64,000 bases of DNA from Tistrella mobilis (GTDB taxonomy: Bacteria; Pseudomonadota; Alphaproteobacteria; Tistrellales; Tistrellaceae): NCBI RefSeq assembly GCF_041468085.1, contig NZ_CP121014.1, positions 186,001 through 250,000 of the forward strand, written 5' to 3'. The notes under the pieces are model-generated. The model was not told the DNA's origin, searched no databases, and was given only the letters and a program-made list of their open reading frames with translations. The number at the start of each line of letters is the position of its first letter. The stretch's first letter is position 1. Below, piece after piece: positions 6,657 to 59,183 of this stretch. The position numbers and the translations under genes were made by a program.

Positions 6657-6704
6657 GCCTCTGTCGGGGCAGGGCGCAGATGGGTGGGGGGGGCGGTCAA
6701 AAGC

Positions 6705-6744
6705 AGTTGCGCGAAGTTGCCCAGAGTTGCGTGATGTTGCGTGA
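6705..6744. repeat. Four tandem 10-bp repeats (rGTTGCssnr)
   Basis: Four head-to-tail 10-bp units (agttgcgcga, agttgcccag, agttgcgtga, tgttgcgtga) lie between the amidase and a small membrane-protein pair. The period equals about one helical turn, so a protein binding each unit would sit on one face of the DNA. Whether it is regulatory or a slippage product cannot be decided. Confidence 0.6.
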
Positions 6745-6805
6745 TTCGCTGGAATCTGAGCGCGACTGAGTCAGTCCTGGCTGTCATGCACATCTGCCTG
6801 AACGC

Positions 6806-7015
6806 ATGCTTGCTGAAGCCGACAAGGGTATCGGCAGGAGCATGGGGGGCCTTCGGATGCGGAGTCAGCTATTGCGGGTGGCGATCGGCCTGGTGGCCGG
6901 CATGGTGGTGGGTACAGTGATTCTGGGCGCGCGCGGTCTGGTGGTCCACGACCACGGACGCGTAAACGCACCGGCTGTGGACGTCACCGAGGGCAGGGGG
7001 AGGGCTGGCGGATGA
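6806..7015 (+). CDS. Small hypothetical membrane protein
   Basis: A possible 69-residue protein with one hydrophobic segment (residues about 24-46, LRVAIGLVAGMVVGTVILGA). A start at the internal ATG (6842 or 6857) would give a shorter protein that begins nearer the membrane segment. Its stop overlaps the start of the next small frame as ATGA. No family is recognised. The coupling with the next frame and the membrane segment are the only support; the antisense strand is also open here. Confidence 0.35.
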   Translation: MLAEADKGIGRSMGGLRMRSQLLRVAIGLVAGMVVGTVILGARGLVVHDHGRVNAPAVDVTEGRGRAGG

Positions 7016-7257
7016 TGCCGGGTGAATCCTTCCTGATGACCTTCCTCGCTCTTGGTATCGTGCGCCGGGTTGGGCTGCTGGTCTGCACGGCCGCCGGCCG
7101 TGATGTCGCCACAGCGTCGCGCATCGCCGATGACATCGGCATCCCGGCGGCGGCGCTGGTGGCCGGTGCGGCCGCAGTCCTTCTTGGTGATCCTGTAGGC
7201 TTGGCCTTCTGTGTCGTTCATCTTGGCCTGGAGGCACGCGAAGCCGGGCCGATCTGA
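7012..7257 (+). CDS. Small hypothetical protein
   Basis: A possible 81-residue protein coupled by ATGA overlap to the preceding small membrane protein. It has two hydrophobic stretches (about residues 8-26 and 45-72) that could be membrane helices. It ends right at the 3' end of the convergent CHAT gene. No family is recognised and it may be non-coding. Confidence 0.35.
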   Translation: MMPGESFLMTFLALGIVRRVGLLVCTAAGRDVATASRIADDIGIPAAALVAGAAAVLLGDPVGLAFCVVHLGLEAREAGPI

Positions 7258-9813
7258 TCAGCTCCAGCTTCCCGACAGGGAATATGGGGCCCAGAAATGG
7301 GGATGCGACAGCCTGTCATCCCCGGCATCGAGTATCGCGAGCTGGGCATCACGCAGGGATGCTGCCAGATCCAGCCCCCGTGCGAAGCGATTCTCGAGAA
7401 TGCGGTCCAGGACGAATCCCGCCACCTCGTCGTCGATCGGCCAGAGGGCGCCCAGTACCGCCCCGACACCCAGCCGGCGCATGGTCTGGTCCAGGCCACC
7501 GCGCCGGCTGGCCGGGGCGTCTGCCCGGGAGAGGGTCTCGCAGCCCATCAGCAGCATCAGATCGATGCCGGACAGATCATGGCGGGCGAAATCGTCAAGA
7601 CTGAACCGGCTGCCATCCCCCAGAAGGAAGGCCGAACGGCCAGGCTCGGCCGGATCTGCATCGAAGTGACACGATATCTGTAGAACCTGGGGCGGTTGAC
7701 TCAGCAACCGATCCAGATCTGCAGCGGTTGCCGTCGTGCCGGGACAATCCACCGGAATGCCATGCCTTGTCATGACGTTGCGGAATGTCGCGAGATCTGC
7801 GGCTGCCTGGGGCAGATCGGCCATGCCCGGCGTCCGCGGAACCGCAAGGCCCGCAGCTCGTCGACCATCGGTCGCAGATGGGCGGTCTGTGGTGCCGTCG
7901 ACCACCACCGCCGCCCGGCGCACCAGAAAATCGCGGCCGTCGTGGAGGGCGGCGAAGGGGATGCGGCCGATTGGGCCGGCGGCGTCCACCAGAAGGGTGG
8001 CAATCCGCGGGTCCGACAGCTGGTCGGCCACCGGCGCGATCAGCATCCGCCACGCGGCATGCAAAGGCGGCAGCGGATCTCGGCGTGGGTCGCGCAGGGC
8101 ACGTTCCAGATTGAAGACCAGATCGGTCAGCTCTCTGGCGGTGCCGAGCCTTCCGGTGCGGATGCTGGCGTGATCCCCGTGCCGGCAGCGGATGGTCAGC
8201 TCTGTGCCCCGCAGCATATAACCCAGGATCGCGACATCGGGACGTGAGGTCCAGCGCCGTTCGTCTGGAAGAGCCGCATCCCCCGGGTCCTCGGGCCGAT
8301 CGGCAAGCAGACTTTCGATCCCGGCGGCCCATTGCAGCGGACCGACCCTGGTGCGTCCGGCCTGCACCAGACGTGCACCTTCGACAAGCTGTGGCCAGAC
8401 CTGTGATTCGCGCGCAGTGAACGGCACCCGCGCGGCCGCAGCAGCCGCTGCCGTGGCGGCAGCCGGCCTGGGCAGCCGCATATCATCTTGTTCCCGCAGG
8501 ATATCGATGCGGATCGCTTCCCCGATCCGGCCTTGGCTCAACAGCAGGTCCTGCAGACGCTGGTAGGGCTTTGGGAAGAAGGTGCCCTCCATCGGGTGCA
8601 GAAGACCCGCGGCTGCTCCGGCGACGTCAAGCCGCAGGCCCTCATGGGCCCGGACAGCGGCCTTGAGCAGCAGCGTGGCAGCATGCAGGGTGGGAAAGCG
8701 ACCGGGGTCATGGAGCGCCGCCAGCATATCACCCAGCATCATCGGAACATTGAAGGCGAGATCCTGGTCATAGATGAAGTCTTCATCCGCCATCAGGGCC
8801 AGCTGGGCGGAGATCGCTTCTTCAGGATCATCCCCTTTCATGATCATCACGGCCCGATGCAGACGCTGTACATTGAAGGCCGGATTGTCACGCCGCAGCG
8901 TCGGCCCATCGGTCCAGCCGGGATGATAGCGCATGGCGCCGCGCATATCGAGGGCCGGACCCTCGGTCTGGCGCCAGGCATTCATGTTACGGAAGGCGGC
9001 CTCGATCCTGTCCCGATCCCGGGAGGCAAGTGCAAGATCTATCTCAGCCGCGAGACCGTAAGCTTCTTTGAGATTGTTTCGGGCCGCCGGCGGCAGGTCC
9101 AGACTGTCGAACAGGGCCAGTACGCGTGGCTGGGTGGCCTTGATTTCATCCGTGGCGTTGCAGCGCAAGGCTTCTGCGCGCCGGGTCGCTCCCCAGATGG
9201 AAATCAGGGCCAGGCCCATATCCGCCGGCAGGCCGTGCAGATAGGGTTCCGCAAGGTCCAGCCAGGCCATGGTCTCGCCTGAACGCCCCCGCTTGAAAGC
9301 ATCCTGCGCCAGGCGTTCGATCAGGATATGGGCGATGCGGACCTGCAGTTCCGGCGCAAGATTTGCGGCCGGGGGCAGGTGGCCGCGGATATGGGCCGGC
9401 CGTGCCTCCGGCGGCAGTCCGGCGATGGCGGCTCCGCCCGCGATGTCTTCCAGCATCTTCAGGCCGATCTGCCCTGCCTCGCCCGCCTTGCCGCGCAATC
9501 GGGCGAGGTCTGCCTGCAGGTTTGCCATCGTATGGTGAAGCAGTTGCCGGACCTCGTCGTTATCCAGCACCGCCGTCAGCATCCGGATCTGGTCGATCGC
9601 GGCTGCCATGGCCTCGGGGGCGCCCCTCACCTGCGCCAGAATGGCCGCATACTCGAAGCCTCGTGCCCGCAGGATCCGTGCCGTGTCGTCAGGCGCTGAG
9701 GCGGTTGCCGTGAGCACGCGCCGGACGGCGTCTTCCAATGCGCCGCCATTCCGGGTTTGCAGGGCACGTTCGGCATCATCAAGGGCTTTGAGCGCATGCT
9801 CTATGGCCGTCAT
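7258..9813 (-). CDS. CHAT-domain protease-like protein with TPR-like helical N-terminus
   Basis: An 851-residue protein ending in a CHAT domain (caspase/separase clan). The predicted dyad is His716 in QISCHFD and Cys758 in LLMGCETLS; the domain closes with LGVGAVLGALWPIDDEVA and WAPYSLSGSW, both typical of CHAT proteins. The N-terminal ~500 residues are alpha-helical and alanine-rich, suggesting TPR-like sensor repeats. CHAT proteases often act in defence or cell-suicide systems after activation by a partner. The start has an AGGGGA box. It lies 12 bp after the DNA-binding protein gene, so the two form an operon. The target is unknown; the catalytic residues look intact. Confidence 0.85.
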   Translation of the reverse strand: MTAIEHALKALDDAERALQTRNGGALEDAVRRVLTATASAPDDTARILRARGFEYAAILAQVRGAPEAMAAAIDQIRMLTAVLDNDEVRQLLHHTMANLQADLARLRGKAGEAGQIGLKMLEDIAGGAAIAGLPPEARPAHIRGHLPPAANLAPELQVRIAHILIERLAQDAFKRGRSGETMAWLDLAEPYLHGLPADMGLALISIWGATRRAEALRCNATDEIKATQPRVLALFDSLDLPPAARNNLKEAYGLAAEIDLALASRDRDRIEAAFRNMNAWRQTEGPALDMRGAMRYHPGWTDGPTLRRDNPAFNVQRLHRAVMIMKGDDPEEAISAQLALMADEDFIYDQDLAFNVPMMLGDMLAALHDPGRFPTLHAATLLLKAAVRAHEGLRLDVAGAAAGLLHPMEGTFFPKPYQRLQDLLLSQGRIGEAIRIDILREQDDMRLPRPAAATAAAAAAARVPFTARESQVWPQLVEGARLVQAGRTRVGPLQWAAGIESLLADRPEDPGDAALPDERRWTSRPDVAILGYMLRGTELTIRCRHGDHASIRTGRLGTARELTDLVFNLERALRDPRRDPLPPLHAAWRMLIAPVADQLSDPRIATLLVDAAGPIGRIPFAALHDGRDFLVRRAAVVVDGTTDRPSATDGRRAAGLAVPRTPGMADLPQAAADLATFRNVMTRHGIPVDCPGTTATAADLDRLLSQPPQVLQISCHFDADPAEPGRSAFLLGDGSRFSLDDFARHDLSGIDLMLLMGCETLSRADAPASRRGGLDQTMRRLGVGAVLGALWPIDDEVAGFVLDRILENRFARGLDLAASLRDAQLAILDAGDDRLSHPHFWAPYSLSGSWS

Positions 9814-9825
9814 GGCATTTTCCCC

Positions 9826-10773
9826 TTATGACAGCGCGCCGGGTGGCAGGGCATCGAAGATCAGGCAGCCGTGCAGCAGGTCGCCGCGACGCCCGGCCAC
9901 CTCTGCTGCCTCGGCCAGAGGCGCCAGACGCCAGGGGGCGAGCTGGGCCTCCGGCGGTGTGCCGCGCCAGCCTCTCGGGAGATCTGTCGCCGTACCGAAG
10001 ATGATCACCGCGAGTTCGCGACGGCCTGTGATGCCGCCGACCTCAAATCCATAGGCAATGGAAACCGGTCCCTTGACGGTCTTTGCAAGAACCAGCAGAT
10101 CGCGTCCTGCGGCGCCCGCGCCGGGGATAACATGGAGGGTCGTCGCCGGGTCTGGCTCCAGAACGTCAAAAACCGCGTGGCCGATGGTGCGGTGCAGGAT
10201 GACGAGCTTCAGAGCGTCGCTTTGCAGGCCGGCACGCAACATATCGGGGAAGGGATCGATTACGATACCGAAGCGTTCGCCGATAGTCGCAGCGGCATCC
10301 ACAAATTCCGCATCTTCTGCCGGTGCGCCGAAATCACTGCGATAGGTGGTCGGGCGCAGCAGGGGGCGCAACCAGCTTTCTGACATGAAGCGTGCTGTTG
10401 CCAGTGGCGGCAGCCTGCCGACCCAGTCGATGGTGGGCGCCCCCTGTCCCCACCGGCCGAAGCCGGCATCCTTGAGATATTGGGCGAACTCCGCCGGCTC
10501 CGCGTCGAACCAGACCGGCGCGATGCCGGGAATGATCTCCCGCAGGCGTGCGCTTTCGATGAAGGCGAGGACATAATCGTCGGCCAGAACGGATTGCCGG
10601 CGAATGCTGCGGGAGATGGTCGATTTGTGGCAACCGACCAGCCTGGCCATCCCGGCGGCGTCCTTGGGGATCCGGGGAGGAAGGTCTGCGGGGTCCCGGT
10701 TTTCGATCATCCAGCGGATATTGCTGCCGCGGTTCAGCGGATCAGTTTTTTTGGGGCCCCTGCCCGAAGCCAT
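9826..10773 (-). CDS. HTH-containing protein partnered with CHAT protease
   Basis: A 315-residue protein with a probable helix-turn-helix near residues 37-60 (KDAAGMARLVGCHKSTISRS), followed by a long region of unknown fold that contains LKLVILHRTIGHAVFDVL and a beta-rich end (HVIPGAGAAGRDLLVLA). A strong GAGGAG box precedes the ATG. It is the first gene of a two-gene operon with the CHAT protein, so it could be the regulator, sensor or substrate of that protease. No named family is recognised for the C-terminal two-thirds. Confidence 0.7.
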   Translation of the reverse strand: MASGRGPKKTDPLNRGSNIRWMIENRDPADLPPRIPKDAAGMARLVGCHKSTISRSIRRQSVLADDYVLAFIESARLREIIPGIAPVWFDAEPAEFAQYLKDAGFGRWGQGAPTIDWVGRLPPLATARFMSESWLRPLLRPTTYRSDFGAPAEDAEFVDAAATIGERFGIVIDPFPDMLRAGLQSDALKLVILHRTIGHAVFDVLEPDPATTLHVIPGAGAAGRDLLVLAKTVKGPVSIAYGFEVGGITGRRELAVIIFGTATDLPRGWRGTPPEAQLAPWRLAPLAEAAEVAGRRGDLLHGCLIFDALPPGALS

Positions 10774-10910
10774 CTCGTCTGCTCCTCACCCCCGGCATGA
10801 ACGCAGATCGATAGTATTTCCGATTCCAGTTCGCCTGCAAAGTGGCAAGCTTTGGTCAGAGATGCATGGCTCTGCGTCACAGGGACCAGGAGGCCGGAAG
10901 AAGAAGTCGG

Positions 10911-12326
10911 TTATGCATACCCTTCCGGCCGGTGTGTATGCCAGTCGGTCGCCGTCTGGAAGGCGTGGGCGGCGCGGGCGATCAGGGCCTCGGCGAAGCG
11001 GGGGCCGGCGAACTGGCAGCCGAGGGGGATGCCCCCGCCGTCACGGGTCTTCTCGCTGATGCCGCAGGGCACCGTGATCGTCGGCTGGCCCGAGACGTCG
11101 AAGGGGGCCGTGAACGGGCCGATCGCCAGGATCGCCGCCGGGTCTTCACCCAGGCCGGACATGTAATCGAGTGTGGGGCCCGCGACCGGCAGGCCGGGGA
11201 TCAGCAGCACGTCGCAGGCGGCGTAGATCGCCTCCATCGCGCCCGCGAAATCGCGGCGGTGTTCCTGCGCTTTGGCCAGCTCGAAGGCGGTGTGGCGGTG
11301 GCCGCGGTCGATCAGCGCGGCGAGGCGCGGGCCGTATTCGGCCGAACGCGTCGACCAGTGGTCGCGATGAACGATGGCGGCCTCGACCGCACATTGCACC
11401 GCCCAGCCGGTCAGCGCCGGTTCGATCGGCGGCAGGGTGACGTCGACGAAGCGGGCGCCGAGCCCGGTCATCACCTCGATCACATGCTCGATCGAGGCCA
11501 GAACCTGATCATCGGCCCGCGCCTTCAACAGCCCGCGGTCGATGCCGATGGTCAGGCCCCGCACCGGTTTGGCGAGTTCTGCCATATAGTCAGGTACGGG
11601 AAGTTGTGATGCGGTGGGGTCGCGCGGGTCGGGGCCGGCCATGACCCCCAGCATGGTAACCGCATCGGCGACGCTGCGCGCCATCGGCCCCATATGGTCG
11701 AGCGAGGGGGCGAGGGCGAGCGCGCCGGCCCGGCTGACCCGCCCCCATGTCGGCTTGATCCCGGTCACGCCGCAGCAGGAGGAGGGCAGGCGGATCGAGC
11801 CGCCGGTATCGGTCCCCAGCGCCCCCCAGATCAGCCCGGCCGCCACCGCCACGCCCGATCCGCTGGACGAGGTGCCGGTCCAGTGCGCAGCCCCCCAGGG
11901 GTTGACCGGCGGCACCACCTCGGGGTGATGGTCGGCATAGGCGCCTTCGGTGAGCGTGGTCTTGCCCAGGATGATCGCGCCTGCGGCCCGCAGCCGGGCG
12001 ATGACGGTCGCATCCCGCCCGGGCCGCCGGCCGCGCAGCACCGGGCTGCCGAATTCCGTCGGCATGTCGGCCGTGTCGAACAGATCCTTGGCCGCCAGCG
12101 GCACGCCGTGCAGGGGGCCGCGCACCAGTCCGGCGGCGATTTCCGCCGCGGCGCGCCGGGCCTGATCCAGCGCCGCATCGTTCCGATGGGCGAAGGCATG
12201 CAGCGCGCCGTCATGGGCGGCGATCCGGTCCATCATGCAGCGGACCGCATCCACCGGCGATACCGCACCGCGGCGGATCTCTTCCGCCAGGCGGACCAGG
12301 CTCAATCTGTGCAGGGTCGACGACAT
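10911..12326 (-). CDS. Amidase signature family hydrolase (second copy)
   Basis: A 471-residue amidase with complete signature: Lys80 in GVPLAAKDLFD, the TGTSSSGSG loop at about 150-158 and nucleophile Ser177 in GTDTGGSIRLPSS. Unlike the amidase at 5.2 kb it keeps the standard DTGGS. It is transcribed divergently from the NMT1-like binding protein, an arrangement suggesting uptake and hydrolysis of a nitrogen-containing compound. The two amidases share the family but differ throughout, so they are not a recent duplication. Confidence 0.88.
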   Translation of the reverse strand: MSSTLHRLSLVRLAEEIRRGAVSPVDAVRCMMDRIAAHDGALHAFAHRNDAALDQARRAAAEIAAGLVRGPLHGVPLAAKDLFDTADMPTEFGSPVLRGRRPGRDATVIARLRAAGAIILGKTTLTEGAYADHHPEVVPPVNPWGAAHWTGTSSSGSGVAVAAGLIWGALGTDTGGSIRLPSSCCGVTGIKPTWGRVSRAGALALAPSLDHMGPMARSVADAVTMLGVMAGPDPRDPTASQLPVPDYMAELAKPVRGLTIGIDRGLLKARADDQVLASIEHVIEVMTGLGARFVDVTLPPIEPALTGWAVQCAVEAAIVHRDHWSTRSAEYGPRLAALIDRGHRHTAFELAKAQEHRRDFAGAMEAIYAACDVLLIPGLPVAGPTLDYMSGLGEDPAAILAIGPFTAPFDVSGQPTITVPCGISEKTRDGGGIPLGCQFAGPRFAEALIARAAHAFQTATDWHTHRPEGYA

Positions 12327-13607: not shown

Positions 13608-13716
13608 GGCGGAGGCTTGTATGCACCGCGGCCCGACGAGGTTGAAACACCTGGTCGGGCCGCCCCGCGGTTGCCGGCAGCGGGGCCGGCGGGCGGCGAT
13701 CTTCACGCGGAGATGA

Positions 13717-15160
13717 ACCTGGATCCCCGCCTTCGCGGGGATGACGGTAGAGAGGGTGTGCGGAGGTGGGCGAAGGGGGGATCGGACAGGGGCGCCGGGT
13801 GCGATCGGGCGGTCATGTCAGGGGCGCGGGCCCCGCGGTTTTCGCCCCGACCCCACCACCGTCGGCCGGTCATGTCAGGCGCCACCCTCGCCCAGGTCCA
13901 CCCTGCCCCCACCACCGTCATCCCCGCGAAGGCGGGGATCCAGGTTGGTTTCCGCGAGAATGAACGGGCGGTCGGAGGTGTGGACGGTCATGTTGGCCAT
14001 CGATGGCGGACCCGGGTGGGCGGCGTTCTTTGTGGGGGAACGGACCTGGATCCCCGCCTTCGCGGGGATGACGGTAGAGAGGGTGTGCGGAGGTGGGCGA
14101 AGGGGGGATCGGACAGGGGCGCCGGGTGCGATCGGGCGGTCATGTCAGGCGCAGGCCCCGCGGTTTTCGCCCCGACCCCACCACCGTCGGCCGGTCATGT
14201 CAGGCGCCACCCTCGCCCAGGTCCACCCTGCCCCCACCACCGTCATCCCCGCGAAGGCGGGGATCCAGGTTGGTTTCCGCGAGAATGAACGGGCGGCCGG
14301 AGGTGTGGACGTCATGTCGGCCATCGACCGCGGACCCGGGTATGCGGCGTTCTTTGTGGGGGGACGGACCTGGATCCCCGCCTTCGCGGGGATGACGGTA
14401 GAGAGGGTGTGCGGAGGTGGGCGAAGGGGGGATCGGACAGGGGCGCCGGGTGCGATCGGGTGGTCATGTCAGGCGCGGGCCCCGCGGTTTTCGCCCCGAC
14501 CCCACCACCGTCGGCCGGTCATGTCAGGCGCCACCCTCGCCCAGGTCCACCCTGCCCCCACCACCGTCATCCCCGCGAAGGCGGGGATCCAGGTTGGTTT
14601 CCGCGAGAATGAACGGGCGGCCGGAGGTGTGGACGTCATGTCGGCCATCGACCGCGGACCCGGGTATGCGGCGTTCTTTGTGGGGGGGGCGGACCTGGAT
14701 CCCCGCCTTCGCGGGGATGACGGTAGAGAGGGTGTGCGGAGGTGGGCGGAGGGGGGACCGGACAGGGGCGGCGTGTGCGATCGGGCGGTCATGGCAGGTG
14801 CCGGCCCCGCGGTTTTCCCCCGCTTCCACCACCATCGGGCGGTCATGTCAGGGGCGCGGGCCCCGCGGTTTTCCCCCGCTTCCACCGCCATCGGGCGGTC
14901 ATGTCAGGCGCAGGCCTCGCGGTTTTCGCCCCGACCCCACCACCGTCGGCCGGTCATGTCAGGCGCCACCCTCGCCCAGGTCCACCCTGCCCCCACCACC
15001 GTCATCCCCGCGAAGGCGGGGATCCAGGTTGGTTTCCGCGAGAATGAACGGGCGGTCGGAGGTGTGGACGGTCATGTCGGCCATCGATGGCGGACCCGGG
15101 TGGGCGGCGTTCTTTGTGGGGGAACGGACCTGGATCCCCGCCTTCGCGGGGATCCACCTT
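13717..15160. repeat. Tandem ~325-bp repeats with paired palindromic REP-like units
   Basis: Four consecutive copies of a ~325-bp unit and one partial copy fill this gene-free stretch. Each unit starts with a palindromic element (GATCCCCGCCTTCGCGGGG, at about 13719, 14048, 14372, 14697 and 15130) and contains the same element inverted (CCCCGCGAAGGCGGGGATCC, near 13922, 14246, 14570 and 15004), the common REP-like palindrome of proteobacteria. The fourth unit is longer, about 430 bp, because a ~55-bp subunit (GCGGTCATGTCAGG ... CCCCGCGGTTTT) is locally multiplied. Long open frames here come from GC bias and do not resemble proteins. Units are near-identical, so the expansion is recent. Confidence 0.85.
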
Positions 15161-15241
15161 CCTTTGCCACGGCTGGGGCTTGCGGGGGACGGGCGGTGCA
15201 TGGGGTGGGTCGACGGTTCTTGACTCGCAGGTGTTCGTATA

Positions 15242-15258
15242 CAATAATGGCATTATTG
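15242..15258. promoter_or_regulatory. 17-bp palindromic operator candidate upstream of SDR operon
   Basis: CAATAATGGCATTATTG is an odd-centred perfect palindrome 47 bp upstream of the SDR start. It lies in the only AT-rich part of the region, next to GTATACAAT, a possible -10 element. It is probably the binding site of a repressor for the operon; no cognate regulator is encoded nearby. Confidence 0.5.
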
Positions 15259-15304
15259 CATTCACAAACGCATATCATGCGTACCAAAACGAGGATCTTG
15301 AGCG

Positions 15305-16171
15305 GTGAAGCTGGGTCTTGAAGGCAAGAAGGTTCTGATCACCGGCGCATCGAAGGGTATCGGCCTGGCCGCCGCCTGGAGCTTTGCCCGCGAGGGTGCC
15401 GATCTGCACCTGGCCGCCCGCTCGGAAGAGGCCCTGGTCGCGGCGAAGGCCGCGATCGAGGCGGAATGCGGTGTGGCGGTGACGATCCATGCCATGGATC
15501 TGTCGAACGATGCGCAGATGGTGGCGCTGGCCGATGCCGCGGGCGATGTCGACATTCTGGTCAACAATGCCGGCAACATCCCCTCGGGCCCGATCGATGC
15601 GGTGGACGATGCCTCGTGGCGCCGGGGGTTCGACCTGAAGGTCTTCGGCTATATCTCGCTGACCCGGGCGGTATATGCCCGCATGCAGGCGCGGGGTATG
15701 GGCGTGATCGTCAACGATATCGGCAATTCGGGCGAGAACTGGGACGCCAATTACATCGCCGGCTCCACCGGCAATGCGGCGCTGATGGCCTTCACCCGCG
15801 CACTCGGCGGGGTGAGCATGGATTACGGCGTGCGGGTGCTGGGCGTGAACCCGGGGCCGGTGGAAACCGACCGCATGGTGCGGCTGATGAAGCGGCGCGC
15901 GGTCGACATGTTCGGCGACGAAACCCGCTGGCGCGAGCTGTTCGACCGCTATCCCGGCGGCCGCCCGGCCACGGCCGAAGAGGTGGCCGATCTGATGGTG
16001 TTCCTGTCCTCGCCGCGCGCCGGCTATGTCAGCGGCACGATCGTGACCATCGATGGCGGCATCGCCTCGCGCGGGTCGATCATCAAGGATGGCGGCCGGA
16101 AGTCGGTCGCGGCCCCCGCCTTTCAGGCCCCCGCCTTTCAGGAGCCCGCTTTTCAGGAGATCGATGCGTGA
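15305..16171 (+). CDS. SDR-family oxidoreductase with atypical active site
   Basis: A 288-residue Rossmann-fold short-chain dehydrogenase/reductase. The cofactor loop is TGASKGIG (residues 13-20) and NNAG is at 87-90. The usual catalytic Tyr-x3-Lys is not present: in the alignable segment GSTGNAALMAFTRALG the Tyr position is Gly153 and the Lys position is Asn157, although Tyr150 is close. It starts at GTG with an upstream GAGGAT box. The C-terminus carries three repeats of a five-residue PAFQ(A/E) unit. It is the first gene of a four-gene operon. It may be a divergent active SDR or a cofactor-binding protein with altered chemistry. Confidence 0.82.
   Translation: MKLGLEGKKVLITGASKGIGLAAAWSFAREGADLHLAARSEEALVAAKAAIEAECGVAVTIHAMDLSNDAQMVALADAAGDVDILVNNAGNIPSGPIDAVDDASWRRGFDLKVFGYISLTRAVYARMQARGMGVIVNDIGNSGENWDANYIAGSTGNAALMAFTRALGGVSMDYGVRVLGVNPGPVETDRMVRLMKRRAVDMFGDETRWRELFDRYPGGRPATAEEVADLMVFLSSPRAGYVSGTIVTIDGGIASRGSIIKDGGRKSVAAPAFQAPAFQEPAFQEIDA
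16112..16156 (+). repeat. Three tandem 15-bp repeats at the SDR 3' end
   Basis: Three in-frame 15-bp units (gcccccgcctttcag and variants) encode the repeated PAFQ tail of the SDR. The last unit ends in CAGGAG, which also serves as the ribosome binding site of the aminotransferase. Copy-number change here would alter the protein tail and the distance context of the next start. Confidence 0.75.
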
Positions 16172-20883: not shown

Positions 20884-21060
20884 CGCGAACCCCAAGCTCC
20901 CGTAAAATTCCCGGGAGGTTCGCGCAGAAGCTTTCCCTTTATTTTCCATACAGATAAGAATTTTCCATGACGCTGCACACATGCATTGGCATGGTGGCCC
21001 TGGAGGTTCGCGCAAATCGGCTTTTTTCCAGTGCCGAATCAGGGTAGTAAATGGGGGTGG
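20884..21060 (+). promoter_or_regulatory. Leader of CRISPR array 1
   Basis: About 177 bp before the first repeat match the leader of array 2. Shared elements are an inverted repeat CGCGAACC...GGTTCGCG (20884-20891 and 20917-20924), a second GGTTCGCG at 21005-21012, T-rich segments and the boundary motif GGGTGG next to repeat 1. It should hold the array promoter and integration signals. The stretch 20754-20883 before it carries the transporter promoter and nothing else I can identify. Confidence 0.7.
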
Positions 21061-21619
21061 GTCGCACCCCTTGCGGGTGCGTGGATTGAAACGGTTATTG
21101 AGGCGCTGGTATCCTACCTGGAACAGCGTCGCACCCCTTGCGGGTGCGTGGATTGAAACAGGATCTGCGCGATCTCCAGACACGCATTAAGGCGTCGCAC
21201 CCCTTGCGGGTGCGTGGATTGAAACATCTTGGCCGGATCCGCCGCGTGGTCGCTGAGGGGTCGCACCCCTTGCGGGTGCGTGGATTGAAACCTGGCCGAC
21301 GACCCGGGCGACGACTGGCCGATTTGTCGCACCCCTTGCGGGTGCGTGGATTGAAACACCATCAGCGACAAACGATTCCGGGCAAACTTTCGTCGCACCC
21401 CTTGCGGGTGCGTGGATTGAAACACGGTACCGGCCGCCTGCTTGGTAGCCACGACGCGTCGCACCCCTTGCGGGTGCGTGGATTGAAACCTGTCGGCGCA
21501 CAATACCTACACCGCGCAGACCGTCGCACCCCTTGCGGGTGCGTGGATTGAAACATCTGTCGACGCATACCCTTCGTACGCCGGCAGGTCGCACCCCTTG
21601 CGGGTGCGTGGATTGAAAC
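21061..21619 (+). CRISPR. CRISPR array 1, type I-C-like repeats, 9 repeats
   Basis: Nine identical 32-bp repeats (start GTCGCACCCCTTGCGGG, end GTGGATTGAAAC) with spacers of 33-35 bp. Repeats begin at 21061, 21128, 21194, 21260, 21326, 21392, 21458, 21523 and 21588. The GTGGATTGAAAC end is the usual 3' handle of type I-C repeats, and the leader is at the low-coordinate end. A ninth spacer and a decayed tenth repeat follow. No type I-C cas genes are in the window, so processing must come from elsewhere. Minus-strand frames across it are artefacts of the repeat. Confidence 0.97.
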
Positions 21620-21653
21620 GGCCCCATCACCATCCCCCGATACCGGTCGGTCC

Positions 21654-23830: not shown

Positions 23831-24575
23831 GTCGCACCCTTGCGGGTGCGTGGATTGAAACCTCCGCGCGGTCGGCGGCACGCGCCGATCGGCGCGTCGC
23901 ACCCTTGCGGGTGCGTGGATTGAAACTCCGATAATCCGAAAAATCAGATAAGAGAAAAATAGTCGCACCCTTGCGGGTGCGTGGATTGAAACTGGCGCCA
24001 GGCCGCCAGGCCTGCGCCGTCGGTTGTCGCACCCTTGCGGGTGCGTGGATTGAAACAATAGCACGGTTAAGTTTAACTAGCGCACTATCGTCGCACCCTT
24101 GCGGGTGCGTGGATTGAAACCTCGCGCTGGCTCCGCGCCGCATAGAGCGCGAAGTCGCACCCTTGCGGGTGCGTGGATTGAAACCGCGAGCAGCTCCGCC
24201 ACGTAAGTGGCGCCGCTGGTCGCACCCTTGCGGGTGCGTGGATTGAAACGTGGTCGGCGCGGGCGACGACACCACGCGCGCGTGTCGCACCCTTGCGGGT
24301 GCGTGGATTGAAACCGCCCGCGCCTCAGAGGCGATCTTGGCATAGGTAGTCGCACCCTTGCGGGTGCGTGGATTGAAACGGGGCCTTGAGCATTTCGAGA
24401 AGGTCTGCGGGCTGTCGCACCCTTGCGGGTGCGTGGATTGAAACGCCCTCGTGATCGACGAATGCGACCAGGTCTCGGGTCGCACCCTTGCGGGTGCGTG
24501 GATTGAAACGGTCGTGGACAGCTCCCCCTCCTTGATGTCGTCAAGTCGCACCCTTGCGGGTGCGTGGATTGAAAC
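23831..24575 (+). CRISPR. CRISPR array 2, type I-C-like repeats, 12 repeats
   Basis: Twelve repeats of 31 bp, identical to those of array 1 except for one C fewer in the C-run (CGCACCCTTGCGGG), with spacers of 33-35 bp. Repeats begin at 23831, 23896, 23962, 24026, 24090, 24154, 24219, 24284, 24349, 24414, 24479 and 24545. The leader is at the low-coordinate end. No degenerate terminal repeat follows; instead the sequence passes after 13 bp into the end of an IS256-type remnant, so the trailer may have been lost. Spacers differ from those of array 1. Confidence 0.97.
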
Positions 24576-24588
24576 TCGCATATAGGTC

Positions 24589-24891
24589 TCTGGGTCACGT
24601 CCCGCCGATCTGGGTCACGTCCCGCCGAGTGGTGTAACAGCGTTTGCCTGGGGATGATGGCGTCCCCGAAATCGGGGTGGTGATCGTCGATCTTCGGTAG
24701 GGTTTGGTTGCGACCCCCAACCGAACCAAGGATCAAGACGATGACCGATGAAATGATCAGCCTTCGTGGCCTGCTGGATAAAGAGCGCTGATGCCGATCT
24801 GCTGCGCGAGATGATCGGTTTTGCCACCGAGCGGCTGATGGAGTTGGAGGTGGCGACGTTGACCGGCGCCGGGCATGGCGAGCGCAAGCCT
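24589..24891 (+). pseudogene. IS256-family transposase remnant
   Basis: A 20-bp direct repeat (TCTGGGTCACGTCCCGCCGA at 24589 and 24609) is followed by the start of a mutator-type transposase at 24741 ([14 protein letters not shown]). A one-base frameshift then moves the frame to [21 protein letters not shown] and LTGAGHGER, the conserved N-terminus of IS256 transposases. The homology stops at about 24891, where the recombinase begins; the rest of the transposase is missing. It cannot be active. Confidence 0.75.
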
Positions 24892-25879
24892 GATCCCCGC
24901 CACACCACCCGGCCTGCCCGTCACCCCAGCTCTGCCCACCACTCCACCCCTCATCGCCGCCGCCGGCGATCCGGCCCAACTGCGCTTCCTCGAATTCTTC
25001 GTCGCCCGGATCCGCAACCCGCACACCCGGCGTGCCTATGGCCGGGCGGCCGAAGACTTCCTCACCTGGTGCAGCGGCGTCGGGCTGACCGCGATCGGTC
25101 AGGTTCAGCCGCTGCATGTCGCGGCCTGGGTCGAGCTTCAGGGGCGGCACTTCGCCGCGCCGACCGTCAAGCAGCGCCTGGCCGGGCTGAAGCATCTGTT
25201 CGACTGGCTGGTGACCGGCCAGATCCTGCCCGCCAACCCGGCTGCGGCGGTGCGCGGCCCGGTGCATCGGGTCAAACGGGGCAAGACCCCGGTTCTGGAG
25301 GCGGCCGAGGCGCGGCGGATCCTGGAGGCGATCGACGTCTCAACCCCGATCGGGCTGCGCGACCGCGCCCTGATCGGGCTGATGGTCTACAGCTTCGCCC
25401 GGATCGGTGCGGCCCTGGCCATGCGGGTGGAGGACGTCTATGTCCAGAACCGGCGCCTCTGGGTGCGGCTGCACGAGAAGGGGGGCAAGCGTCACGACAT
25501 GCCCCGTCACCACAATCTCGATGCCTGGCTGCACGACTATATGGAGGGCTGTGCTCTGGCGGGGGGCGCTTTGGCAGGTGACCGGCGGCGTGCCCTGTTC
25601 CGGACCATCGCCCGCGGCACCGGCCGGCTGAGCCACCGGGCGATGCAGCAGGCCGATGCCTATGCGATGATCCGGCGCCGGGCCGCGGCGGCCGGGATCG
25701 AGACGCCGATCGGCAATCACAGCTTCCGGGCCACGGGGATCACCGCCTATCTCAAGAACGGTGGCACGCTGGAAAAGGCGGCGACCATGGCCAACCATGC
25801 CTCTACCCGCACTACCCGGCTTTATGACCGGCGGCCGGATGAGGTGACGCTGGATGAGGTGGAGCGGATCTTCGTCTGA
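24875..25879 (+). CDS. Tyrosine recombinase/integrase, copy 1
   Basis: A 334-residue phage-type integrase. A SAM-like DNA-binding domain ([20 protein letters not shown], residues about 48-67) is followed by a catalytic domain with the Arg of SFARIGAAL, Lys of [15 protein letters not shown] (H-x2-R) and the final [14 protein letters not shown] with the nucleophile Tyr. The ATG at 24875 lies in IS256-derived sequence (the GHGER codons in another frame), so the first ~6 residues are a fusion product. It is nearly identical to the copy at 55.8-56.9 kb. It could mobilise cassettes in this island. Confidence 0.85.
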
Positions 25880-29996: not shown

Positions 29997-31474
29997 CCGC
30001 CGTCCCCCGCGGTATCCGGCCGTGGGGGGCCGACCCGGACCAGCCGCCAGCCACGGCCGGCGTCGGCAACAGGTTCCAGCACGTGCGTCCGCTCGGCCCG
30101 CTGCCAGTTGAGCATCGGATTGCGGCCGGCCCATTGCGTGGCCATGGCATCGGGGGCAAACAGGATCAGGGCACCGGGCTCAAAATCTTCAATCCGCCGG
30201 GACCAGAGATTGATCATGTGCTGCGGGATGCTGCGATTGCCGAGGGCGGGATCGACGTCGAAAGTGTAGAGCAGCCCCGGCCCCAGGGGGCGCAGCAGGC
30301 CCGCGAGATGGCGTTCGAACCGATTGCGGTCGATCAGTGGCGTGAGCCCGCGGCCGGACTGGGCCATCTGCACCGCCAGCATGAGAACGGGAACCGTCAG
30401 AACAAGAGGTCGAAGGCGGCGATGTATCCATCCTGCGGCCCTTAACCAGGCCGGATAGAGCAGGGAAGCGGCAAGCGGATGCAGCGGCAGCTGAAAGCGC
30501 GGATTCTGAAAGGGGATGCCGGCCAGGAACAATGCATAGAGCCCCCCCGCAGCCGACAGCAACAACGCCTGACGGCCACACAGGTCACGCAGGCGCAGGA
30601 AGGGCAGCACCAGCAGCAGCGGCAGATGCGATGGCCGCGCCAGCGCCGTGACCACATAGACCAGGGTCGGCAGCGGATAGTGCTGAATGCCGTCGGCGGT
30701 GGAGACGTCGCGTGTGAACCAGTTCGACACCGACCACAGGGTCAGGGAATAGTGCTGAAACAGGTCGCCGGCCTCCGCCTGCTTCACGGCTGTGTGCAGG
30801 GCCACGCCTGCTGCCAGGATCGTCACCGCACCGCCAAGCCCCGCCCAGGCCCGATGGCGGATCGCCACGGCTGCGACCTGCAGCCCGGGCAGCAGCAGAA
30901 GCACCGCCATGCCGTAGCGCGTGCCGACGGCGGCAACTGCTGTGGCCGCGAATCCGATCAGTGCCGATGTCGATGGACGGCGGGTGAAACCGGCCTGAAA
31001 GACGATCGCCCAGCAGCCGAAGGCCATGGCGGTCATGTCCGACATCACCAGAACCCCGGCCTGAAGCAGGGCGGGGCTGGCTGCGATGGCGAGGAACAGC
31101 CACAGGCCCCGCAATGCGGGCCGGTCATCCGGCAGCTCCGATGGGCTGCGGAGCCCGTCGATGATCCGCGAGATGGCGGGCACTGTGGCCGCCAGGGACA
31201 GGGCTGCGATCAGCTGCAGCGCCAGGATCACGTCACCGGTGATCCAGCCACCAAGCGCCCCCAGCAGCGTGAACCCTACCGGCCAGGCGTGCCATCCCGG
31301 CGAAATACCCTGTGTCATCCAACCCTGAAGGGCAGTGGCGAAGCGGGCATATTCATGAGCGTCCTGGCCATAGAGGCCGTCGAACCCCCAGATCCAGCGC
31401 ATTGCAGCCAGGACCGCCAGTGGCAGCAGCATCGCCGGCAGAAGATGACGGAAACCGACGCCGCCTTCAGCCAT
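29993..31474 (-). CDS. Polytopic membrane glycosyltransferase (GT39/GT83-like)
   Basis: A 493-residue membrane protein with about 10 or more hydrophobic helices. The first loop FDGLYGQDAHEYARFATALQGW carries the acidic QDAHEY motif where GT-C enzymes of the PMT/ArnT type hold their catalytic Asp/Glu. The start at 31474 overlaps the preceding gene by 8 bp. GT-C enzymes use polyprenyl-phosphate sugars on the periplasmic side, so this would act after the flippase. Confidence 0.75.
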   Translation of the reverse strand: MAEGGVGFRHLLPAMLLPLAVLAAMRWIWGFDGLYGQDAHEYARFATALQGWMTQGISPGWHAWPVGFTLLGALGGWITGDVILALQLIAALSLAATVPAISRIIDGLRSPSELPDDRPALRGLWLFLAIAASPALLQAGVLVMSDMTAMAFGCWAIVFQAGFTRRPSTSALIGFAATAVAAVGTRYGMAVLLLLPGLQVAAVAIRHRAWAGLGGAVTILAAGVALHTAVKQAEAGDLFQHYSLTLWSVSNWFTRDVSTADGIQHYPLPTLVYVVTALARPSHLPLLLVLPFLRLRDLCGRQALLLSAAGGLYALFLAGIPFQNPRFQLPLHPLAASLLYPAWLRAAGWIHRRLRPLVLTVPVLMLAVQMAQSGRGLTPLIDRNRFERHLAGLLRPLGPGLLYTFDVDPALGNRSIPQHMINLWSRRIEDFEPGALILFAPDAMATQWAGRNPMLNWQRAERTHVLEPVADAGRGWRLVRVGPPRPDTAGDGG

Positions 31475-32930
31475 GTTCAGCCGTTCCCTCAGGCGACACC
31501 CGACCGGGTGGGCTGAACCTGCGATGCCACCACATCCCCGTCCGGGCGAGTCCGGCGGCGAGATGGTGGCGCAAGGCCCGTGGATGCCAGATGGCCCCTG
31601 CCTGATCGACGGCGGCTGCATGGTTCAGGTAGCGCAGGGCCTGGGTGTAATAGCGATCGCCATAGCTGCGCGGAAACCGGTTGTCGCGGTCGCTGCCGTC
31701 ATCGAAGGCAGGGCCTGTCACATGGTCCGCCACCGCGTCGTGAAACTCGGTGCCCCGGATCGGATAGGCGAGGGTGACCGTGAACCTGTCGGGCCTGGCC
31801 GCCCGGAGATAGCGCCGCGTGGCAAGGATGTCGGCTTCGGTTTCGCCGGGATAGCCCAGCATCAGGAAGGTGCCGGTCTCGATGCCGGCGGCGGCCGCTG
31901 CCCGGATCATCGCGGTTACCTGTTCCACGGTGACCCGCCGGTCCATGGCATCCAGGATGCGCTGGGATCCGCTCTCAGCACCGATCCAGACCCGTTTGCA
32001 GCCGGTGCGGGCAAGCAAAGCCACCACCTCGTCGGTCATCCGGTCGGCGCGCGTGATGCACTCATAGCGGATGGAAAGTCCTGCTGTATCCAGGGCGGTC
32101 GCGAAATCCGTCAGCCAGCGATGATTGACCGTGAACACGTCGTCGACGAACCAGTACATGTCGGGCGCATAGCGTGCCGACAGTTCTGCCAGTTCCGCCA
32201 CCACAAGCTCCGCCGAACGACGGCGATAGCTCTTGCCGTAAACCGCCCGGCTGCACCAGTTGCAGGTATAGGGGCAACCGCGCTGGGTGCTGACATTGAG
32301 CGAGGTCTCGCCATGGGCCCGACGCCAGGCGTTGAAATAGGGGGCAAGATCGATGCGATGGCGGGCCGGACGCGGCAGATCGTCGAGCCGCGGCAGATGG
32401 GCCCGGGCCGGCGTGGTTGCCGGCCGGCCATCGGCACCACGATGCACGAGCCCTGCGATCCCCGCCAGAACCGCGGGATCACGGCAGGCGGCCGGATCCA
32501 GTTCCGCCAGGGCCGCCATGGTCTCCTCGCCCTCGCCAACCACCAGGATGTCGATGCCGTGATCCAGGTAATCGCCGGCATTGTAACGGGCATCCGGGCC
32601 GCCCAGCACCACGGTCAGCCCGGCATGCTTCGGATCGGCGCGCAGCCGCCGGACGAGGCCGAGAATGGTGCGCCGGGTCATCAGCGTCACATAGAAGGCG
32701 ATCATCCGCGGGCGGAGTCGCGTCAGTTCTGCAACGACGTCGTCGACGGTGCGGAAGGTGGTATCAATCACGTCATGATCGAGGCCCCGGCGGTCGAGCC
32801 AGGCCGAGATGGACAGCAGACCGAGCGGTGGATAGGGCCGCATGATCCGCTGTTCCACCGGATCATCGGCCAGGAAATATCCATGGGTCAGGACCAGGGG
32901 GCCGCCGGCATGTGCAGGAGGCAGGTTCAT
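31467..32930 (-). CDS. B12-binding-like radical SAM protein
   Basis: A 487-residue protein with a cobalamin-binding-like N-terminal domain (residues ~10-170, including VVLGGPDARYNAGDYLDHG and LVVGEGEETM) and a radical SAM core with RGCPYTCNWCSRAV (Cys219, 223, 226). Members of this class methylate or rearrange unreactive carbons. ATG 32930 is chosen because it overlaps the methyltransferase stop by 4 bp. It resembles two other proteins of this operon, which suggests repeated radical steps on one product. Confidence 0.85.
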   Translation of the reverse strand: MNLPPAHAGGPLVLTHGYFLADDPVEQRIMRPYPPLGLLSISAWLDRRGLDHDVIDTTFRTVDDVVAELTRLRPRMIAFYVTLMTRRTILGLVRRLRADPKHAGLTVVLGGPDARYNAGDYLDHGIDILVVGEGEETMAALAELDPAACRDPAVLAGIAGLVHRGADGRPATTPARAHLPRLDDLPRPARHRIDLAPYFNAWRRAHGETSLNVSTQRGCPYTCNWCSRAVYGKSYRRRSAELVVAELAELSARYAPDMYWFVDDVFTVNHRWLTDFATALDTAGLSIRYECITRADRMTDEVVALLARTGCKRVWIGAESGSQRILDAMDRRVTVEQVTAMIRAAAAAGIETGTFLMLGYPGETEADILATRRYLRAARPDRFTVTLAYPIRGTEFHDAVADHVTGPAFDDGSDRDNRFPRSYGDRYYTQALRYLNHAAAVDQAGAIWHPRALRHHLAAGLARTGMWWHRRFSPPGRVSPEGTAEHG

Positions 32931-33766
32931 GCGACCCTCCGGAGATCGATCAGCAGATGATCGGCGCAGCCTGCAAGCCAGCCGCATCGAGCAAGCCGGC
33001 GATCCACCGCCTCAAGCCTGGCAATCAGGCCCGGCCGGCGTGCGAAGACCGGTTCCAGCGCCGAGGGCGGCACGGCCAGCCCGATCGGACGGATGGTGTC
33101 GCAGGCAAAATTTCCCGCGAAGGCCTGCCTGAGTGCCGCGGCGCCATGATACCAGATGCTGAGCGGCTGATCGCCGATCCGGGCCGGGACCGGTCCGCGG
33201 CTCAGCCGACGGAAGGCGGCCCGGGGCCGCAGACGGACGAGATTCCATCCCGCTTCCCACAGGCAGAGATGCGGCATCACCACCAGGATCACCCGGCCTC
33301 CCGGGCGGACCAGCCCGGCCAGCCGGCGCGCCAGGGTAGCCATTACCTCGGGGCCGATACAGTTCAGCCCGCCGAAATCCGAGAAGACCAGATCGAAACC
33401 CTCGGCCTCGTTCACCGCATCGAGCGGCTCGCCTGCAGCCAGGGCCTCGACGGCCAGCTGCTGCGTCCGCACAGCGCCCGTGCGCACGGTCCCGGCCAGT
33501 TTTGCGTCGGCCAGTTTTGCCTTGATTCGGGCCAGCATGGCGCCGGACAGGTCCGTCGCCAGCACCTGATGGCCAAGGCCGGCCATGTGGATGGCATCCT
33601 CACCCGTGCCGCAGGTCAGCTCCAGCACCTGCAATGGCCGTCCGGGTTCCGCCAGCCGGCGGTCCAGATGGTCCCGGACCAGACGGCGTTGGGCGGCGCC
33701 CGTCAGGCTTTGGGTGAAGTCCCGGTCATAATCCGCTGCGGCCGGATCGAAGGCGGCAGCCGTCAT
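32927..33766 (-). CDS. SAM-dependent methyltransferase (class I)
   Basis: A 279-residue methyltransferase. The SAM loop is LELTCGTGEDAIHMAGLG near residue 48, followed by VLATDLSGAMLARIK, and the acidic strand reads FDLVFSDFGGLNCIG. The C-terminal half is Arg-rich and family-poor. It overlaps both neighbours by 4 bp, so it is translationally coupled. Its target is probably a sugar or lipid intermediate of the same cluster. Confidence 0.82.
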   Translation of the reverse strand: MTAAAFDPAAADYDRDFTQSLTGAAQRRLVRDHLDRRLAEPGRPLQVLELTCGTGEDAIHMAGLGHQVLATDLSGAMLARIKAKLADAKLAGTVRTGAVRTQQLAVEALAAGEPLDAVNEAEGFDLVFSDFGGLNCIGPEVMATLARRLAGLVRPGGRVILVVMPHLCLWEAGWNLVRLRPRAAFRRLSRGPVPARIGDQPLSIWYHGAAALRQAFAGNFACDTIRPIGLAVPPSALEPVFARRPGLIARLEAVDRRLARCGWLAGCADHLLIDLRRVA

Positions 33767-36243
33767 GTTCCGCCCTCCTCGGCCGGATGTGGCGCCGATG
33801 GCGCATCGGTCCGCGGCCGTTCCAGCCGCCTCAGCCGGATCCCGTCGATCACCATCCGCGGCAGATTGCGGGCAAGCCCGCCCAGTCCGCGCAGCCGGCC
33901 GCCCCGTCGGGGCTCCGCCAGGCGGCCCTGCAGCACTGCCCGTGCGCGGGCGGTACCGTAGCGGTGATGCAGGTAGCGATGCAGCTGCCGATAATATTCC
34001 GGGGAATAGGTCCCGGGAAACATCAGGTCGAGATCGTCGCTGTCGGTCCAGTTGGTCTTGGGGCCGAGGGCCGCACGCACGCGGTCATGGAATACCGTCC
34101 CCGGCAGGGGGTAGGACACCGAGATTCCGATCTGATCGGGCAGAAGTTCTTCGACCATGGCGATGGTCCGGCCGATATCCTCTCGGGTTTCACCCAGATA
34201 GCCGAATTGCAGAAACAGGGCACTGCGGATGCCGCGGGCGCGCAGCGCTGGCACCACCCGGTCGATCTGCCCGCGGGTGATCCCCTTGTCCATGGCATCG
34301 AGAATGGTCTGCGACCCGCTCTCGGCACCGATCCAGGCGGTTTCAAGCCCCGAGGAAGCCAGTGCATCAAGGGTGGTGCCGTCACGCAGCAGCAGATCGG
34401 CGCGCGATTGGATCGTGTAGCGGAACCGCAGGCCCTGCGCCTTGATCAGTTCGTCAAAGCGCTGCACCCAGCCGGGCTTCAGCCCGAAAATGTCGTCGGT
34501 GATCCAGAAATGGTCGACACCGGCCGACCGGATCAGCCGGGCGATCTCGTCGACCACCCGTTCAGGCGAGCGGGAATTGTACCGGTTGCCATAGATCGGC
34601 TTGGCGCACCAGTTGCACGAATAGGGGCAGCCGCGTGTGGTTGCGAGGTTGAGCGAGAACCGCCCGTGGCGGCCCATCCAGATCTCGCGGTAAGGGGCCA
34701 GATCGACCAGATCCCAGGCCGGGTCGGGCAGTTCGTCCAGGTCGCGGGTTACCCTGCGCGGCGGCTCGATCACGGGTTCGCTGTTTCCGGTCCGGGGACG
34801 GTGGGTGACGCCTGCGATACCATCGAGCGGGCGCTCTGCCCGCCACGCCTCCAGCACCTCGCGCAGCGTGGCTTCGCTTTCGCCGCGGATCACCGCATCG
34901 GCGCCGGCATCCAGATAGAGGGCGGCATTGTCGGTGGCATCGGAACTCGCCACGGCCACCCGGGCGCCGAAGGCGCGGGCCAGGCCTGCCATGCGCAAGG
35001 CTGCCTCGCGCATCCGGGTGAGGCACATCTTGGTCAGATAGTTGAAGCCATCTTCGTGGATCACGACCACGGCCGGCCGGTCGACCTCCAGCCGGGTGAG
35101 CAGATCGTATTCGCTCAGGGCAAGGCCGGCATCGAAGAGCGATACGGCGAAGCCGGCCTCACGTGCAACCGCGGCGGCATAGAGCGTGCCGAGCGGCGGA
35201 TAGGGTTGGCCGGTCTGCCACTGCTTGGGGTCGAAGCGATAGAAATAGGCGGAGGCGAACAACACGTGATCAGGGTCGGTCCGGCGGTCGATCGGGGCGC
35301 CGATCCGTGCTTCCACCGCATCCAGCCCGGCCTGATGGAGCTGCAGCGTCCGGTATTTCCACTCGGTCGTGTGGCCTTTGAACACATGGCGATCGAGGAC
35401 GAGACTGCCATTGGCTTCGATCGCCCTCGCATCAGGGATGCGGCGACGCAGGTGCAATCGGGTCAGCGCCAGCAGGGCCCTGTCTGCCAGGTTGCCCGCC
35501 GGTCCGGCAAAAAGGGCTTCACCCAGGCGGCGCAACGGCGATCGCGGCGGGCCGTCGACCGCAGGCAGCAGCGTCATGTTCGGGCGATGATCGGCAGCCC
35601 AGCCGTTGGCCTGCTGCATCTCAGCCAGAATGTGATGGCCGCCCACCGGGACAAGTGTCGCCAGCTCGGTTGCCGTGAACAGATCCTGGCGTGCAAAGAC
35701 CAGCGCCGATCGGTCCACCACGTAATTGGTGCACAGCCATTCCCGACTGGGCAGGCACCGGGCATAGACCATCATCAGGCTGCGTGCGATCCATAGCCGC
35801 CCGGTGCGGGTGACCACAAAGAAGTCGTAATCTCCGTCTTCCGCCAGAACCCCTTTCGACAGCGATCCTGAGATCGCCACGGCGTCGATGAAGGGGAAGC
35901 GCATCAACCGTCGCCCGATGGCCTGTGCCCGTGGCAGATGATCTGCTGCCCGGCTATTGGCTGCCATGCGGCGCGCAGGAAGGTCGGTGCCGGCGTTCAG
36001 CCCGGCGATCCAATACCGGTCCAGGCCGGGGCGGGTTTCGACGATGCCACGGCCGACCAGGGCCGTGAGGGCCGCGACCGTCGCCTCGAAGGAAATCCCG
36101 GCGCTGTCCAGCGCATCCCAGACCTCGCCCGCTGCCAGCGGGTGCCCGAAGACCTGGTGATAGGCCAGTGTCCGGAGCACGGCAGATTCGGTCGCTGTCG
36201 GGGCGATCGTCCGGACATCACCGGTGATGATGCCGTCCCTCAT
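33763..36243 (-). CDS. Nucleotidyltransferase-like / B12-binding radical SAM fusion
   Basis: An 826-residue protein with an unusual domain order. Residues ~1-110 look like a winged-helix segment. Residues ~115-310 resemble a pol-beta-type nucleotidyltransferase with GSLSKG at 126-131 and DYD at 138-140. A cobalamin-binding-like domain follows (ARAFGARVAVASSDATDN), then a radical SAM core with RGCPYSCNWCAKP (Cys539, 543, 546). ATG 36243 overlaps the GT9 stop by 4 bp. The fusion suggests a nucleotide-activated or nucleotidylated substrate feeding a radical step. I know of no named family with this architecture. Confidence 0.8.
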   Translation of the reverse strand: MRDGIITGDVRTIAPTATESAVLRTLAYHQVFGHPLAAGEVWDALDSAGISFEATVAALTALVGRGIVETRPGLDRYWIAGLNAGTDLPARRMAANSRAADHLPRAQAIGRRLMRFPFIDAVAISGSLSKGVLAEDGDYDFFVVTRTGRLWIARSLMMVYARCLPSREWLCTNYVVDRSALVFARQDLFTATELATLVPVGGHHILAEMQQANGWAADHRPNMTLLPAVDGPPRSPLRRLGEALFAGPAGNLADRALLALTRLHLRRRIPDARAIEANGSLVLDRHVFKGHTTEWKYRTLQLHQAGLDAVEARIGAPIDRRTDPDHVLFASAYFYRFDPKQWQTGQPYPPLGTLYAAAVAREAGFAVSLFDAGLALSEYDLLTRLEVDRPAVVVIHEDGFNYLTKMCLTRMREAALRMAGLARAFGARVAVASSDATDNAALYLDAGADAVIRGESEATLREVLEAWRAERPLDGIAGVTHRPRTGNSEPVIEPPRRVTRDLDELPDPAWDLVDLAPYREIWMGRHGRFSLNLATTRGCPYSCNWCAKPIYGNRYNSRSPERVVDEIARLIRSAGVDHFWITDDIFGLKPGWVQRFDELIKAQGLRFRYTIQSRADLLLRDGTTLDALASSGLETAWIGAESGSQTILDAMDKGITRGQIDRVVPALRARGIRSALFLQFGYLGETREDIGRTIAMVEELLPDQIGISVSYPLPGTVFHDRVRAALGPKTNWTDSDDLDLMFPGTYSPEYYRQLHRYLHHRYGTARARAVLQGRLAEPRRGGRLRGLGGLARNLPRMVIDGIRLRRLERPRTDAPSAPHPAEEGGT

Positions 36244-44935: not shown

Positions 44936-44970
44936 TTATTGATTAGATCATATATGCATGAATAGGATCG

Positions 44971-44991
44971 TGACAGAATATGAACCTGTCA
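44971..44991. promoter_or_regulatory. Inverted repeat TGACAG-N9-CTGTCA upstream of Cascade
   Basis: TGACAG (44971-44976) and CTGTCA (44986-44991) form a 6-bp-arm inverted repeat with a nine-base centre, 100 bp before cse1 in an AT-rich promoter-like region. The spacing suits a dimeric HTH protein such as the Xre or HicB-like protein upstream. It is an operator candidate only. Confidence 0.45.
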
Positions 44992-44999
44992 CGCCGATC

Positions 45000-45072: not shown

Positions 45073-45090
45073 ATTCGGAGCCTTACGCTC

Positions 45091-49969: not shown

Positions 49970-49973
49970 TCTT

Positions 49974-59178: not shown

Positions 59179-59183
59179 GGGCC

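Follow-up and report, generated by a model that had tools for sequence, protein, structure and literature searches.

A CHAT protease gene and a probable DNA-binding partner in Tistrella mobilis: a candidate two-gene defence or cell-death switch

Bacterial caspase-like CHAT proteases are known from few defence settings, and outside type III-E CRISPR their activating partners are mostly unknown. A 64,000-nucleotide stretch of the Tistrella mobilis genome, referred to here as the window, carries such a protease gene directly behind the gene of a putative regulator, and raises the question of what the two do together next to metabolic genes. With a compact mobile pair of this kind, which has an intact catalytic dyad and a dedicated DNA-binding partner, one could test directly how a bacterial caspase-like protease is silenced and what it cuts, and the orphan C-terminal domain of the partner suggests a possible marker for an undescribed system.

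The gene pair and its products

In the window, the two genes lie on the minus strand and form an operon, as a first-pass annotation of the bare sequence had proposed; both reading frames are present, and the unit is kept in a second genus, Belnapia. The partner gene comes first (9826..10773, 315 aa) and the CHAT gene second (7258..9813, 851 aa), with 12 nt between them (9814..9825, same strand), where a purine-rich stretch resembling a ribosome-binding site precedes the CHAT start. A search upstream of the pair for a sigma-70-like site found none, and a palindrome at 10909-10922 was rejected as its operator because it sits at the end of an amidase gene, outside the pair. The open reading frame at 6865-7221 (minus strand), downstream of the protease gene, has no Pfam match and was not counted as a gene.

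The C-terminal part of the second product, residues 582-849 of 851 (7267..8070, minus strand), matches the CHAT family in Pfam (PF12770; E 4.5e-35, 121.9 bits against a cut-off of 24), and in a profile search of the whole genome this protein alone matched the family. The dyad that had been described as intact, His716 (codon 7666-7668, minus strand) and Cys758 (codon 7540-7542, minus strand), lies exactly at these positions and is kept in all five aligned CHAT proteins. In addition, the TPR-CHAT chain 7zoq_A aligns with the protein (E 5.7e-4), with the His and Cys motifs of the two lining up. The product is a putative protease.

The N-terminal part had been called a long helical sensor, and the helical half of this description stands. 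An AlphaFold2 model has paired helices across residues 1-280 (8974..9813, minus strand) with block-mean pLDDT mostly between 66 and 91, the model being fair in the N-terminus only and poor in the CHAT part. The structural matches of this region are helical-repeat proteins, largely of the TPR type, the best with a Z of 15.4 and an rmsd of 2.1 over 123 residues, and middling Z values are usual among helical repeats; the VIA-align matches mostly cover residues 1-405. Pfam gave no TPR match in the N-terminus at E<=1, and the role of this scaffold as a sensor is a conjecture. Separase combines a helical repeat with a C-terminal caspase-type protease and was among the weak Foldseek matches of the CHAT model, but Foldseek returned nothing at E<=0.001 with this weak model, and the eukaryotic function of separase is unrelated. 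The structural resemblance to separase, and likewise that to Csx29, is not relied on.

The first product had been described as a helix-turn-helix (HTH) protein with an unknown C-terminal domain. The second part of this description holds, in that the C-terminal two thirds have no match in Pfam, NCBIfam, PHROGs, PADLOC, or PDB sequences. The HTH is weaker: Pfam gives an HTH_38 match below the cut-off (E 0.0083, residues 42-59), and, independently, an HTH_31 match, also below the cut-off, in the Belnapia homologue (E 0.028, residues 36-69). These sub-threshold matches fall in the same place in both members, which marks residues 36-69 (10567..10668, minus strand) as the probable HTH region and makes the partner a probable DNA-binding protein. 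A structure model of the partner was set aside, its mean pLDDT being 37.

Conservation of the pair and searches for further members

A pattern scan with the protease, which covered one genome for each of 84,980 species and reaches close relatives only, found a single full-length relative, in Belnapia rosea, which belongs to another alphaproteobacterial lineage and a second genus; three further matches were confined to the CHAT part. The Belnapia protein is 41% identical over residues 12-850, or about 42% overall, and scores 142.1 bits against PF12770. Directly upstream of its gene, in the same order as in the window, lies a homologue of the partner (322 aa, 39% identity along the full length), whose frame shares 4 nt with that of the protease. 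This homologue was reached through synteny, while a direct scan with the partner returned nothing. Since both genes are full length, in the same order, and tightly coupled in Belnapia, the two form a real unit, beyond chance; the pair is known from these two members, so that co-conservation has n=2.

Conservation along the partner is uneven. The block that holds the HTH (residues 41-80) is the least conserved, at 20% identity to Belnapia, against 62% at residues 121-160 and 57% at residues 241-280, and the C-terminal domain includes an invariant motif, GFEVGGITGRREL (residues 242-254; 10012..10050, minus strand), in which 13 consecutive residues are identical between the two members. An HTH at 20% beside two C-terminal blocks at 57-62% fits operators that change while a protein interface stays constant; the DNA target sites may thus have diverged, with the C-terminal domain keeping a common partner or ligand. 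The pattern is compatible with an interface or ligand role of that domain and says nothing of cleavage.

Further members were sought with each protein in turn. A single-sequence search with the partner in 385 genomes of the class gave three matches at E<=1e-3, its own genome included; those in G238, at the end of a cytochrome-oxidase-like gene (by eye), and in G211, where the frame has an in-frame stop and overlies another gene, were taken as chance. Among 398 genomes of the phylum, eight had a match at E<=0.01, again with its own genome included, and five of the seven other loci were inspected (L054 and L058 were left out), none resembling the partner. The 397 genomes of Belnapia's family gave three matches at E<=1e-3, Belnapia included, and the two others overlap a MoxR-like ATPase gene (by eye). 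These partner searches score few candidates per genome and their samples overlap, so the true prevalence may be higher.

The CHAT protein found matches in 30 of the 385 class genomes, all of them except its own genome in the C-terminal part only. Two of 395 genomes of Belnapia's order matched at E<=1e-25, namely Belnapia itself and G767; the latter was rejected as a pair member, its TPR-CHAT gene standing behind an ECF-sigma-like gene. At L091:9896-13314, an ECF-sigma-like gene lies right before a TPR-CHAT gene, which makes a different combination of a regulator with CHAT, and a large surface-protein-like gene follows further on. Matches to the CHAT protein on plasmids cover at most 45% of the query; none of its relatives were found in phages or viral contigs, and the partner was not found in plasmids, phages, or viral contigs.

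Insertion site and genomic neighborhoods

In the window, two amidase genes converge, and the segment between their stops (6657..10910), which holds the pair, is lineage-specific. The flanking genes are 88-92% identical between the window and two congeneric genomes, G001 and G002; the inside of the segment is unmatched, and both genes of the pair are absent from both genomes (G001 has a weak CHAT match elsewhere in the genome, E 4.9e-4). The two amidase stops are 4254 nt apart in the window against 374 nt in G001, whose gap contains two exact CRISPR repeats and a third, degenerate one judged by eye, and in G002 the flanks end at contig ends where this repeat occurs in 38 and 5 exact copies. The window segment has no copy of it, even when eight mismatches are allowed. 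In this small sample of three genomes, with G002 inferred across a contig break, the pair sits where both congeners have a CRISPR array.

The insert holds only two recognizable genes, those of the pair, plus about 600 nt without a recognizable gene, and its flanks are the amidases. GC3 is 0.73 in both genes of the pair and 0.82-0.89 in five flanking metabolic genes, in a codon analysis that covered window genes only, and this lower value is in line with a foreign origin. The pair is rare, mobile, and lineage-specific, and moves jointly between distant bacteria.

The genes nearest to the pair in the window are metabolic, encoding the two amidases, a CoA-ligase, and a substrate-binding protein. 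The window has its own CRISPR arrays at 21060-21620 and 23831-24575, the nearest about 10 kb from the pair; their repeats are alike except for one C inserted in that of the first array, and they are the same as, or one base longer than, the congener repeat. A gene of the phage-integrase family (24875-25879) adjoins the second array. A type I-E cas operon (42290-51241; Cas3, Cas8e, Cas7e, Cas5e, Cas6e, Cas1e, and Cas2e) lies 31 kb from the pair, and type III genes of a III-D-like kind (Cas10, Csm4-like, and Cas7-like) occupy 57493-62749. Beyond these type III genes, a 675-codon open frame at C1:257223 has a Cas1 match.

The neighborhood of the Belnapia pair (G744 C24:6723-10276) is of another kind. 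The pair lies beside a conjugation coupling gene, a VirC1/ParA-like gene, and transposase-like genes; on the same contig, genes for Leo-like GTPases follow at 14.5-16.7 kb, a KAP/PifA-like gene at 22.9-25.1 kb, and a type-2-like BREX cluster (BrxHI, BrxD, BrxC, and the C-terminal part of PglX) at 28.8-40 kb, 18.5 kb from the pair. By its content, this neighborhood is a mobile defence island, with the defence genes at G744:C24:14533-40000. The first-pass annotation had named confinement to housekeeping contexts as one finding that would speak against its proposal; with BREX, Leo-like, and PifA/KAP-like genes near the pair in Belnapia and a CRISPR array in its place in both congeners, the association with defence loci instead appears in more than one genome.

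Proposed function and comparison with known systems

Taken together, the pair has the look of a two-gene switch for defence or cell death that has not been described before; it stands beside antiviral defence genes or replaces them, and it is probably defence or abortive-infection machinery. With no recognizable genes in the insert besides these two, one or other of them most likely encodes the effector. In the reading that we prefer, and to which we give an even chance of being right, the pair is a mobile module in which a TPR-CHAT cysteine protease is the effector, the HTH protein is its dedicated, co-translated regulator, and cleavage triggered by infection or invasion stops growth. In the resting cell, the partner would repress the operon and/or use its conserved C-terminal domain to keep the protease inactive. 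A signal linked to infection or invasion would then activate the protease, with either the TPR-like scaffold or the C-terminal domain of the partner as its sensor. The protease would cut the partner, host proteins, or both, and growth would stop; cutting the partner would lift repression and might also release an active C-terminal fragment. The partner could be the sensor or the cleavage target, as was first suggested; protease activity, trigger, substrate, repression, and anti-phage effect alike are what we infer. Against this reading stand the metabolic genes nearest to the pair in the window, the distance from there to the CRISPR arrays and the cas operon, the small number of members, and the sub-threshold HTH.

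The pairing had been reported as unrecognized, and the comparisons made here agree. PADLOC, whose library presumably includes a model for Borvo, matched neither protein at E<=1. Borvo, a single-gene phage defence with a CHAT protease, resembles the pair in that the CHAT domain is the likely effector, and differs from it in that the window protease has an obligate-looking HTH partner. Judged by titles and the opening lines of abstracts, no paper among those listed for CHAT together with defence, HTH, Borvo, or Tistrella in an open-access library describes such a pair. The table of one review assigns CHAT to no systems other than Borvo and type III-E (PMC10952713).

Several of the features that favor this module would also suit a toxin-antitoxin-like addiction module, in which the HTH protein is a neutralizing autorepressor and the CHAT protein a toxin, serving replicon stability and not phage defence. 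The HTH gene comes first and the enzyme second, the two are tightly coupled, their distribution is mobile, and the Belnapia copy adjoins the VirC1/ParA-like and conjugation coupling genes. However, the pair is rare, the site of a CRISPR array is an atypical home for such a module, and both proteins are far larger than the usual type II components, which are as a rule much smaller than a pair of 315 and 851 aa. We regard this alternative as rather unlikely, and it overlaps the preferred reading because such modules often defend.

A regulatory proteolytic switch, in which the protease inactivates the HTH repressor and so switches genes elsewhere, for stress response or for control of an element, and with no killing, is an unlikely reading as well. 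Its model is ImmR/ImmA of ICEBs1, where a metallopeptidase inactivates an HTH repressor (PMC8960796). There, as here, a repressor-like gene precedes a protease gene in tandem, so that the window pair, with its sub-threshold HTH, may be a working analogue, and the conjugation coupling gene in the Belnapia region would suit such a role. The window insert, however, offers no further element genes as targets of regulation, and the two proteases are of different classes. ImmA is a metallopeptidase, whereas the window protein is a cysteine protease of the CHAT type that also has a large helical part, CHAT being the only domain that was found in it. The regulators differ in size too, with 127 residues in ImmR against 315 in the window partner.

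The other of the two closest working analogues is Craspase of type III-E CRISPR, in which Csx29 cuts Csx30 and thereby frees a sigma factor (PMC10028731). Csx29 likewise has a TPR-like N-terminus and a C-terminal CHAT domain with a His/Cys dyad, although the 7zoq_A match is weak, and the protease gene is likewise grouped with a transcription regulator, CASP-sigma there and the HTH partner here. On the other hand, the window CHAT protein scores 12.2 bits against the NCBIfam Csx29 model, whose cut-off is 300; the insert has no Cas7-11, Csx30, Csx31, or CASP-sigma; and the partner, an HTH with an orphan domain, is neither a sigma factor nor Csx30. Given this score, the missing III-E companions, and a protease class other than that of ImmA, the pair belongs neither to Craspase nor to ImmR/ImmA, with a switch logic that would be broadly similar. 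A more specific and decidedly speculative version of the defence module, of low probability, would make it a minimal immune system. The DNA-binding partner would directly guard against invading DNA or sense it, and the TPR-CHAT protease would cut that same partner beside the HTH, freeing a conserved, toxic C-terminal domain that bears the invariant motif. Such a system would parallel the Csx29-Csx30-sigma chain with two proteins and no CRISPR guide.

The CHAT domain alone is no proof of defence, since its relatives in G009 and Calothrix adjoin haemagglutinin-, two-partner-secretion-, and surface-protein-like genes (by eye). That the window protein has a non-immune signaling or secretion-linked role, as these relatives and the ECF-sigma-like gene ahead of the G767 TPR-CHAT gene might indicate, is nevertheless improbable, because those proteins match the C-terminal part only, the partner searches found no homologue of the partner, and neither member of the pair, in the window or in Belnapia, has adjoining secretion genes.

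Two other features of the window may be recorded. Long tandem repeats, each about 300 nt in length, lie between genes at 13688-15321 and have many related copies across the replicons of the genome, and the region 31467-39045, which encodes three radical-SAM/B12-binding proteins, a methyltransferase, and a glycosyltransferase, looks like a biosynthetic island.
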